Source of the DNA: Brevibacterium jeotgali
Lineage (GTDB): Bacteria; Actinomycetota; Actinomycetes; Actinomycetales; Brevibacteriaceae
Direction: 5' to 3'
Assembly: GCF_900169175.1 (NCBI RefSeq)
Contig: NZ_FXZM01000002.1
Coordinates: forward strand, 124,001-188,000
DNA: 64,000 nucleotides
Made by a program: the position numbers and the translations under genes. Within the stretch, counting starts at the first letter, position 1. Every line of letters starts with the position of its first letter. Shown here one piece after another: positions 34,631 through 37,963 of the stretch. Under the pieces are notes generated by a model. That model searched no databases, was not told where the DNA came from, and saw only the letters and a list, made by a program, of their open reading frames with translations.

Positions 34631-35623
34631 TCAGTCCCTGCGCAGGGACGCCTCCTCGTTGCGTCGCATCGCGATGAGGCTGGCGACCGTCGCGACGAGC
34701 ATCGCCGTGATGATGAAGCCCAACGACATCCACGTGTTGATGACCGGGACCTGCGAGGTGAAGGCACTCGGCAGCCACTCCGTCTCGTGGAGGGCGTGGA
34801 GGAACAGCTTTACGCCGATGAACGCGAGGATCGCGGCGATGCCGTAGTGGAGGTAGGGCAGCTTGTCGAGCAGACCACCCAGCAGGAAGTAGAGCTGGCG
34901 CAGGCCCATGAGCGCGAACACGTTCGCCGTGAACACGAGGAAGGTGTCCTGGGTGATGCCGAAGATCGCGGGGATCGAATCGAGCGCGAACATGATGTCG
35001 GTCGTGCCGATCGCGACGAACACGATGAGCATCGGGGTCCAGAACTTCTTCCCGTCGATCGTCACGCGCAGCTTGTTGTCGTGGTAATCGTCGGTGATGT
35101 TGATGCGCTTGCGGAGGAAGCGGATGAAGCCGTTCTCCGCGTCTTCGTCGTCGTCACCGCTGAAGGCCTGCTTCCACGCGGTCCACAGGAGGAAGACGCC
35201 GAAGATGAAGAAGACCTCGATGAAGCTCTCGATGATCGCGGCGCCGGCGAGGATGAAGATGCCGCGGAAGATCAGCGCCAGGATGATGCCCACCATGAGC
35301 ACCTGCTGCTGGTACTTCTTGGGCACCGCGAAGCCGGTCATGATGATGACGAAGACGAACAGGTTGTCGATGCTGAGGCTGTACTCCGTCAACCAGCCGG
35401 CGAGGAACTCACCGCCGCGCTGCGCGTCGCCCATCGCGAAGAGGATCCCGGCGAAGACGAGCGCGAGTGTCACGTAGAAGGCGACCCAGAGAGAGGCCTC
35501 CTTCATGGAGGGCGTGTGCGGCCGTTTGACGACGAGGAGGAGGTCCGCGACGAGGATCAGCACGAGCACGACGCTCGAGACGACCTCGAACACGTGATAG
35601 GGATCCTGGAAGAACTCTTGCAT
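34631..35623 (-). CDS. terC: TerC-family integral membrane protein (putative metal exporter)
   Basis: A 330-residue membrane protein with about nine helices. Two family motifs with acidic residues in membranes are visible: YSLSIDNLFVFVIIM and TTDIMFALDSIPAIFGIT. An acidic loop (GDDDEDAENG) lies in the cytoplasmic middle. TerC/Alx proteins relate to tellurite resistance and more generally to manganese export. A manganese-type riboswitch candidate just upstream supports metal transport. GAAAGG stands 5 bases before the ATG. It is not in a ter gene cluster, so a tellurite role is unlikely. Confidence 0.92.
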   Translation of the reverse strand: MQEFFQDPYHVFEVVSSVVLVLILVADLLLVVKRPHTPSMKEASLWVAFYVTLALVFAGILFAMGDAQRGGEFLAGWLTEYSLSIDNLFVFVIIMTGFAVPKKYQQQVLMVGIILALIFRGIFILAGAAIIESFIEVFFIFGVFLLWTAWKQAFSGDDDEDAENGFIRFLRKRINITDDYHDNKLRVTIDGKKFWTPMLIVFVAIGTTDIMFALDSIPAIFGITQDTFLVFTANVFALMGLRQLYFLLGGLLDKLPYLHYGIAAILAFIGVKLFLHALHETEWLPSAFTSQVPVINTWMSLGFIITAMLVATVASLIAMRRNEEASLRRD

Positions 35624-35654
35624 GGGGGCCTTTCAGAGGAGTGGTGCGCATCAT

Positions 35655-35770
35655 GCGGTCGAAAGTCTCTCCCACGGTCCCGGTTCGGGCCGCTCCACAT
35701 CCGGATCGCGCCGTGCTGCGATCGTGATGACGAACGTGGATGAGCGAGGGATACTCCCCTTCAACGACGC
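35655..35770 (-). ncRNA. yybP-ykoY (manganese) riboswitch candidate upstream of terC
   Basis: In the 162-base gap between uvrB and terC, the leftward strand shows both conserved ends of the yybP-ykoY motif: AAGGGGAGTA (5' loop) and GGGAGAGACTTTC (3' side). They are joined by an 8-pair P1 stem, GTTGAAGG (35765-35758) with CTTTCGAC (35665-35658, one or two G-U pairs). Between them are a CGTCATCAC segment and a GC-rich hairpin region. This class binds Mn2+ and controls mntP, alx and terC-type genes. The terC ribosome site is 30 bases downstream, so control may be at translation. No covariance search was run. Confidence 0.85.
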
Positions 35771-35785
35771 CTCATCGTACACGTC

Positions 35786-37963
35786 TCACGCGTGGCCCGC
35801 CTCCTTCATCTGCCGCAGTTCGCGTTTGAGGTCGCCCAGTTCGTCGCGCAGCCGCGCCGCGAGCTCGAACTGCAGGTCCGCCGCCGCGGCGTGCATCTGG
35901 TCGGTCAGCGAGGCGATGAGCTCGACCAGATCCTCCGCGGGCGGCGCCAGCGGGGCTCCGTCGGACTTGCTGCGTTCGAAGGCGGCGCGCTGCTCGTCCG
36001 TGATCGTCGCGTTGAAGCCCCGCTTGCCCTTGCCGTAGTCGAATTCTGCGAGGATCTCGCGGGTGTCCGCGTCCTCCCGGCGGAGGCGCTCCGTGATGTC
36101 GGACAGCTTCTTCACCAGCGGCTGCGGGTCGATGCCGTGCTCCTCGTTGTGCTTCCGCTGGACCTCGCGCCGTCGGTCCGTCTCATCGATCGCCTGCCGC
36201 ATCGACCGTGTGATCGTGTCCGCGTACATGTGGACTTCGCCGTGCAGGTTGCGCGCGGCGCGTCCGATCGTCTGGATGAGTGAGGTCGCGGACCGCAGGA
36301 AGCCCTCCTTGTCCGCGTCCAGGATCGACACGAGGGAGACCTCCGGGAGGTCGAGGCCCTCGCGGAGGAGGTTGATGCCGACGAGCACGTCGAAGTCGCC
36401 TGCCCGCAGCTCACTGAGCAGCTCCACCCTGCGGAGGGTGTCGACATCGGAGTGCAGGTATTCGACGCGCACGTCGTGCTCGAGGAGGTAGTCCGTGAGG
36501 TCCTCAGCCATCTTCTTCGTCAGAGTCGTGACGAGCACGCGCTCGTTCCGCTCGACGCGCACCCGGATCTGCTCCAGCAGGTCGTCGATCTGCCCGCGGG
36601 TGGGCTTCACCGTCACCTTCGGGTCGATGAGTCCGGTCGGACGGATGATCTGCTCGACGTAGCCGTTCGCGCGCTCCAGCTCGAAGGGGCCGGGGGTCGC
36701 GGAGAGGTACACGGTCTGGCCGATCCGCTCGAGGAACTCGTTGAACTTCAGCGGCCGGTTGTCCATCGCACTGGGCAGCCGGAACCCGTGGTCCACGAGG
36801 GTGCGCTTGCGCGACATGTCCCCCTCGTACATCCCGCCGATCTGCGGGATCGTCGCATGGGATTCGTCGATCACCAGGAGGAAGTCCTCCGGGAAGTAGT
36901 CGAGCAGGCAGTTGGGCGCCGTGCCGCCGGCGCGCCCGTCGATGTGCCGCGAGTAGTTCTCGATGCCGGAGGTGAAGCCCATCGACCGCATCATCTCGAG
37001 GTCGTACGTGGTGCGCATCTGCAGCCGCTGGGCCTCGATCAGCTTGTTCTGCCCCTCCAGCTCCTGGAGGCGGTCCGCGAGCTCCTGCTCGATGTCCGTG
37101 ATGGCACGGCCCATCCGCTCTTCGCCGGCGACGTAGTGGCTGGCCGGGAAGATGTGGACGACCTCCTCCTGCCGCACGATCTCGCCCGTGAGCGGGTGGA
37201 GGGTGTAGAGGGCCTCGATCTCATCGCCGAAGAACTCGATGCGCAGCGCCAGCTCCTCGTACTGCGGGATGATCTCCACCGTGTCGCCGCGCACCCGGAA
37301 GGTGCCCCGGGTGAACGCCATGTCGTTGCGCGAGTACTGCATCGAGACGAACCGCTTCAGCAGTTCGTCACGATCGAGTTCATCGCCGATCTTCAGCGAC
37401 ACCATGCGGTCGACGTACTCCTCCGGGGTGCCCAGGCCGTAGATGCAGCTGACGGTCGACACGACGACCACGTCGCGCCGGGTGAGCAGGGAGTTGGTGG
37501 CCGAGTGCCGCAGCCGCTCCACTTCGTCGTTGATCGACGAGTCCTTCTCGATGAAGGTGTCCGTCTGCGGGACGTACGCCTCCGGCTGGTAGTAGTCGTA
37601 GTAGGAGACGAAGTATTCGACGGCGTTGTTCGGCAGCAGCTGGCGGAACTCGTTCGCGAGCTGCGCTGCGAGCGTCTTGTTGTGGGCCATGATCAGCGTG
37701 GGGCGCTGGATGCGCTCGATCAGCCAAGCGGTCGTCGCGGACTTGCCCGTGCCGGTCGCACCCAGCAGCACGACGTCCTTCTCCCCCCGATCCAGCCTCT
37801 CCGTCATGTCCGCGATGGCAGCGGGCTGATCACCGGAGGGCTGATAGTCGGACACCACGTCGAACGGTGCGACGGAGCGGACGATCTCCGGACGGTGCCC
37901 CACCCGCGGGACGGGCCTCTGCGGAGCGTCCTGGGGGCGTGAGTCGGGTGGCTGCGCAGTCAT
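35786..37963 (-). CDS. uvrB: UvrB, excision nuclease subunit B
   Basis: A 725-residue helicase-like repair protein. Motif I is [13 protein letters not shown], the beta-hairpin region contains [16 protein letters not shown], motif II is [13 protein letters not shown], motif [11 protein letters not shown], and a UVR domain closes the protein ([27 protein letters not shown]). It is loaded by UvrA and holds UvrC. The ATG at 37963 has no ribosome site; TATCGT (37976-37971) lies 7 bases ahead, so the message may be leaderless. A start 10 codons upstream is the alternative. Confidence 0.96.

Follow-up and report, generated by a model that had tools for sequence, protein, structure and literature searches.

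A candidate yybP-ykoY manganese riboswitch ahead of terC in Brevibacterium jeotgali that may switch translation through its own P1.1 helix

Between uvrB (identified by its sequence, with its stop codon at 35786 to 35788) and a terC gene on the minus strand of Brevibacterium jeotgali lies a gap that raises two questions: whether it holds a genuine Mn2+ riboswitch, and, if so, how such an element might act on terC. The window analyzed here is a 64,000-nucleotide stretch of that genome. A preliminary description had placed a yybP-ykoY motif at 35655 to 35770 of the window, nearly the extent of our model match (35656 to 35769), and had recognized both conserved ends and an 8-pair P1 stem. Both ends, AAGGGGAGTA and GGGAGAGACTTTC, were recovered on the minus strand, and the stem is present, with 35765 to 35758 pairing with 35665 to 35658 and two of the eight pairs being G.U, although its outer two pairs are poorly kept in relatives. 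Absent from that description was the P3/L3 sensor arm, UCGUCAUCACGAUCGC...GCGAUCCGGA, which is also present. The two L1 strands that characterize the riboswitch class, GGGGAGUA and [AG]AGAC, are closed by P1.1 (Table 1). No P2 hairpin or four-way junction was found in the window, where an 8-nt linker stands in the place of P2; we treat P2 as optional, since a streptococcal mgtA leader is mentioned as having a three-way junction (PMC9495176). The aptamer, at 35656 to 35769 on the minus strand, stops 32 nt short of the TerC-family gene, whose product is closest among named relatives to a protein of Brevibacterium yomogidense (98% identity by protein comparison). The TerC domain encoded downstream is the one expected of an Mn2+ exporter and puts the aptamer upstream of an Mn homeostasis gene.

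Table 1. Features of the terC leader and gene in the window, with the evidence for each (A1 to A3, alignments; R1 and R3, covariance models)
Feature	Position	Strand	Evidence
yybP-ykoY (Mn2+) riboswitch aptamer, predicted	35656..35769	-	R1, 93.7 bits; R3 (built without the window), 70.2 bits
-10-like box TACGAT, predicted leader promoter	35774..35779	-	TANNNT position conserved
P1.1 5' strand GUUGAAGG (switch helix)	35758..35765	-	Pairs counted in A1, A2 and A3
L1 5' strand GGAGUA	35752..35757	-	GGAGTA in 87/90, 40/40 and 39/40 loci
P1.2 5' strand UCCC, partner 35670-35673	35748..35751	-	A1 alignment
P3.1 5' strand CCACGUUCG, partner 35695-35703	35731..35739	-	Covariation
L3 loop UCAUCAC; A at 35728 is the putative equivalent of Mn ligand A41/A48	35724..35730	-	A in 130/130 loci of the taxonomic class
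P3.2 5' strand GAUCG, partner 35704-35708	35719..35723	-	A1, A2
P4 hairpin	35675..35692	-	A1, A2
L1 3' strand GAGA	35666..35669	-	L1 motif tabulation
P1.1 3' strand CUUUCGAC; also proposed anti-Shine-Dalgarno	35658..35665	-	Complementarity to own Shine-Dalgarno
Shine-Dalgarno GAAAGG, 5 nt ahead of the start codon	35629..35634	-	
terC gene	34631..35623	-	330 aa; Pfam TerC PF03741, E = 2.6e-50

The preliminary description had named a non-significant score against the Rfam yybP-ykoY covariance model as grounds for abandoning the riboswitch, and, taken literally, such a score is what the site returns. RF00080 (Rfam 15) gave no match in the window at its gathering threshold and none at E ≤ 10 in a 241-base region; over the window's own genome it reported three subthreshold places, none of them at the terC leader, and over the family it gave matches at E ≤ 10 in 21 of 60 genomes, 0 above the cutoff, with none of the listed places at a terC leader when compared by eye with the matches of model R2 (below). 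The cutoff, 45 bits, is a curation cutoff rather than a defining feature of the riboswitch class. Against it, the leader of Escherichia coli mntP, an established Mn2+ riboswitch, reaches 41.6 bits, nothing is reported at E ≤ 10 for E. coli alx, and not one of 394 genomes of the taxonomic class passes it, so we regard the negative result as uninformative. The cutoff was passed in 2 of 14 named control genomes, and the alignment printed for RF00080 leaves the GGGGAGUAG strand unpaired and lacks P1. Over the taxonomic class, 10 genomes matched RF00080 at E ≤ 0.01 under strict filters, compared with 123 of 394 for the lineage-built model R1 at the same threshold and filters. Compared by eye, a single one of these 10 matches (G292) shares its place with a match to R1; the two models thus detect different members, and some escape R1. 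An older Rfam release called the Corynebacterium glutamicum terC leader at 49.13 bits, and an RNA start was observed there (PMC3890552).

We turn to covariation within the lineage. A structure of 29 pairs was placed by hand on 24 leaders (A1; 20 genomes of the window's genus, 2 named Brevibacterium, and 2 Microbacterium), giving 95.4% paired cells, double changes at 13 of the 29 pairs, and a covariation score of 0.289 versus 0.052 to 0.075 in slid controls. Two further alignments, both fitted to models and hence leaning towards the structure, were 93.4% paired with double changes at 25 of 29 pairs (A2; 90 loci from 145 listed R1 matches in the taxonomic class, being the best 97 minus 7 skipped) and 90.1% paired with double changes at 22 of 29 (A3; 40 further loci of the class, hand-picked from the R1 and R2 match lists). 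Changes on both sides affect five of the nine P3.1 pairs in A1 and eight of nine in A2. Within P1.1 only the six inner pairs are well kept (A2 and A3), the outer two being mostly unpaired in relatives (44/90 and 56/90 in A2; 31/40 and 31/40 in A3), and the L1 string GGAGTA is kept in 166 of 170 loci when three sets are pooled. Slid versions of the structure lose the covariation signal. Helices P1, P3, and P4 are thus backed by covariation in A1, A2, and A3, as expected for the riboswitch class, and comparison of these leaders offers strong support for the predicted five-helix structure.

Homology to an experimentally studied member points the same way. R1, built from A1 with the window as a member, gives 47.8 bits (E = 2.5e-11) for the leader of E. 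coli alx; R2 gives it 57.8 bits; and R3, built from the 40 loci of A3 with the window excluded, gives it 52.2 bits while still finding the window (E = 8.5e-17). The A3 loci were themselves found with R1 or R2, in whose training sets the window is 1 of 24 and 1 of 90, respectively. E. coli mntP was not found by R1 (E ≤ 10), R2 (E ≤ 1), or R3 (E ≤ 1), and for loci from Comamonadaceae, Bacteroidales, and Pontimonas (L013 to L015) R1 gave no match at E ≤ 10 and R2 a best E of 0.091. Over a sample of the phylum, R2 matched 99 of 396 genomes at E ≤ 0.001; scans of more than 40 genomes used stricter filters, so their counts are lower bounds. On this comparative evidence we take the element to be a real yybP-ykoY riboswitch aptamer, one predicted to bind Mn2+.

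The alx leader, which likewise precedes a TerC-family gene (Alx is described as a TerC homologue; PMC13274385), has the same L1 strands as the window, the same type of L3 (CGUCANNACG), and, as in the window, a P3 internal loop with CCGG. It differs in its longer P4 arm and in a separate hairpin after P1 (GACCUUGCC/GGCGAGGUC, by eye), whereas the 3' strand of P1.1 in the window faces the Shine-Dalgarno sequence directly. The E. coli mntP leader, of the same riboswitch class, is reported to be a translational ON switch (PMC11647493); by eye its L3 is of the ACAUACU type and it has a P2 hairpin, unlike the window. In the Lactococcus lactis structure L3 begins with UCA, as in the window, and the invariant ligand adenosine is common to both (PMC6754395). 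The reported L. lactis and Xanthomonas oryzae structures contain a P2 (PMC9190785) that is reduced to a linker in the window, and those two members act on transcription, whereas we propose a translational role here. The leader of C. glutamicum terC (cg2157) is another actinobacterial terC leader, likened to the window by context rather than by compared sequence, and its prediction is reported to match an RNA-seq start (PMC3890552). The link between the yybP-ykoY class and actinobacterial terC was thus already known from C. glutamicum (PMC3890552), and the window element is a new member.

What lies downstream of the aptamer was tabulated at several depths. Within the family, R2 matched 59 of 60 genomes, the remaining genome (86% complete) also being without a terC hit; the element lies 32 to 111 nt upstream and on the same strand for 60 of 61 terC hits, 3 of 63 RNA matches lack an accompanying terC hit, and the motif is present at each of the 30 best-scoring of these 61 hits, whose loci were read. 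Among 130 loci of the taxonomic class, 87 aptamers precede TerC, 32 precede GDT1 (UPF0016; 31 assigned by tblastn and one by Pfam), and 11 precede something else, one of these being cut by a contig end. Outside the taxonomic class, 40 hand-picked R2 loci divided into 15 with TerC, 5 with GDT1, and 20 with neither according to two tblastn queries.

Several downstream genes fall outside these two families. By eye, 12 of the 20 non-TerC/GDT1 loci outside the class resemble P-type cation ATPases, and other downstream genes in the same set (L164 to L203) resemble Na/Ca-exchanger-like proteins or M50-type membrane peptidases. Within the class, aptamers were seen before GreA/GreB-like genes (L139 and L158), PGPGW membrane proteins (L128, by Pfam; L222, by eye), a baeRF protein (L152), and ATP synthase D (L131); these are either unexpected targets or wrongly chosen open reading frames. 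Four genomes (G107, G154, G140, and G085) have three or four aptamer-model matches each, with L135, L137, L223, L227 to L229, L220 to L222, L089, L124, and L226 as example loci.

Crystal structures show Mn2+ coordinated by phosphates and by N7 of an invariable adenosine: A41 in L. lactis, whose L3 begins with UCA, and A48 in X. oryzae, whose L3 is of the ACA type (PMC6754395). With L3 types read from alignment columns, the third L3 position is A in all 130 loci of the taxonomic class, consistent with an intact Mn ligand. The type itself splits exactly by downstream gene, UCA being found in 87 of 87 TerC leaders and ACA in 32 of 32 GDT1 leaders. This split, which emerges from comparison between loci, takes the preliminary description further and may reflect separate tuning of two sensors. 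Example loci are L067 (the window) and L227; E. coli fits the same division by eye, with UCA in alx and ACA in mntP.

Taken together, the covariation, the homology to the alx leader, the invariant Mn-ligand adenosine, and the presence of TerC or GDT1 downstream in 119 of 130 class loci support the earlier proposal of a yybP-ykoY Mn2+ riboswitch before terC. Its companion prediction, that the TerC of the window exports manganese, is plausible from homologues. A Vibrio TerC is reported to be an Mn exporter (PMC13274385), but Bacillus TerC proteins are reported to have a different role, the metalation of exported enzymes (PMC10550928). Mn2+ is the likely metal for the TerC of Brevibacterium and its relatives.

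A possible expression platform is suggested by the 3' strand of P1.1, which is complementary to the Shine-Dalgarno sequence of its own gene; where the strand differs between loci, the difference is often matched in the Shine-Dalgarno (CUUUCG with CGAAAGG, CCUCCGG with CCGGAGG, CCUUGUG with CACAAGG, and CCUUCGG with CCGAAGG). In the window, CUUUCG could pair with UGAAAG through five Watson-Crick pairs and one G.U pair, the segment being predicted at -4.8 kcal/mol. We examined 65 TerC loci, that is, 67 minus two (L124 and L153) without the AGAC string that places the strand. The longest Watson-Crick run averaged 6.55, versus 4.80 with strands swapped between loci (0/10,000 permutations). Since the start codon was sometimes visibly too far downstream, the test was repeated with a fixed 70-nt leader on the TerC loci of the class, giving 6.65 versus 4.97 (0/10,000). 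Collapsing identical 9-mers to single rows (19 rows) gave 5.42 versus 4.11 (0/10,000; 94/10,000 counting G.U), and 20 additional TerC loci gave 6.00 versus 5.22 (19/10,000; 404/10,000 for its 12 distinct rows). For 15 loci outside the class the signal was not significant (1,185/10,000; 833/10,000 with the fixed 70-nt leader), and their 6 distinct rows gave 307/10,000. Because relatedness between loci is ignored in the permutations, all of these probabilities are optimistic. The complementary site includes AGG or GGA in 57 of the 65 loci, and the isolated segment from the P1.1 3' strand to the Shine-Dalgarno folds into the expected hairpin in 62 of 65, versus a mean of 39.5 (range, 35 to 49) with swapped strands.

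Because the P1.1 3' strand matches its own Shine-Dalgarno better than those of swapped loci, these results support a translational ON switch. Thermodynamic folding of the whole window leader formed neither P1.1 nor the anti-Shine-Dalgarno pairing, and when the aptamer was enforced in whole-leader folding the Shine-Dalgarno was predicted to be mostly paired. Among the titles and abstract openings returned by a limited literature search, none concerned this arrangement in actinobacteria. The proposed anti-Shine-Dalgarno role likewise extends the earlier reading and derives from comparison of related leaders.

The GDT1 leaders (e.g., L134, L138, and L237) appear longer by eye, and in them the P1.1 5' strand often recurs, in a form like GGTCGAAGG, well ahead of the Shine-Dalgarno, which suggests a platform working in two steps. 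The complementary stretch in these leaders also often lies ahead of the Shine-Dalgarno (by eye), so their platform differs from that of terC leaders.

Scanning the window for the sigma-70 consensus turned up no promoter. A TANNNT box nevertheless precedes the GGGAGTA strand by 13 to 16 nt in each of the 31 distinct A1-group upstream sequences, with no second occurrence in their 62 nt. Given this conserved spacing, the predicted transcript probably begins with P1.1 or immediately upstream of it.

Could the leader be something other than a translational Mn2+ switch? A conserved leader or protein-binding site that merely resembles a riboswitch would fit the missing Rfam 15 match and a single-sequence fold in the window whose stability was not significant against shuffles (z = -0.43), but we consider it highly improbable in view of covariation in 24, 90, and 40 loci, cross-phylum homology to E. 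coli alx under three models, and the 70.2 bits that R3 assigns to a window left out of its construction. A genuine aptamer might instead act by transcription attenuation, intrinsic or Rho-dependent. The Lactococcus and Xanthomonas members are reported to act on transcription through P1.1 (PMC6754395 and PMC9190785), and Rho is reported to act at the E. coli mntP riboswitch (PMC11647493). The start codon follows P1.1 after a gap of 34 nt, however, a scan of 35560 to 35860 found no site resembling an intrinsic terminator, and the Shine-Dalgarno itself covaries with P1.1, all of which makes attenuation unlikely.

A different doubt concerns the signal: other divalent ions or pH might be the main cue in vivo, with Mn2+ secondary, and the expression of alx itself answers to pH. 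In addition, alkaline pH is described as favoring the binding of Mn to the mntP riboswitch of E. coli (PMC11647493), Alx is described as adjusting Mn under alkaline conditions (PMC13274385), and Cd2+ occupies one L. lactis structure (PMC6754395). Against this, the ligand adenosine and the L1 strands are kept and most of the aptamers precede genes of two Mn-linked families, TerC and GDT1, so that a main cue other than Mn2+ seems to us even less probable than attenuation.

We favor a translational Mn2+ switch made of a yybP-ykoY aptamer and a shared P1.1/anti-Shine-Dalgarno strand as the full explanation of the terC leader, with a probability of roughly 0.85 from sequence comparison. The terC mRNA would start with the aptamer, in the order P1.1, L1, P1.2, a short linker for P2, P3.1, L3, P3.2, and P4. 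As in other members of the class, L1 and L3 would dock around Mg2+ and Mn2+ and stabilize P1.1, whose 3' strand (GACUUUC) would, judging from the covariation, double as an anti-Shine-Dalgarno. At low Mn2+ this strand would pair with GAAAGG before the start codon and turn translation off; at high Mn2+ it would be kept in P1.1, leaving the Shine-Dalgarno free so that TerC is made. By analogy with its homologues, TerC would then lower cytosolic Mn2+ through export or through loading of secreted enzymes.

For actinobacteria, it follows that a negative RF00080 result says little, and a candidate rejected by the current public RNA model is now settled. The leader also offers a testable and very simple translational switch. 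More tentatively, at somewhat less than even odds, actinomycete terC may in general be governed by a compact translational Mn2+ switch that shares its P1.1 3' strand with the Shine-Dalgarno, while in a subset of these genomes another sensor, of the ACA type and tuned separately, precedes GDT1/MneA-type exporters, the L3 subtype marking which Mn2+ exporter is controlled.
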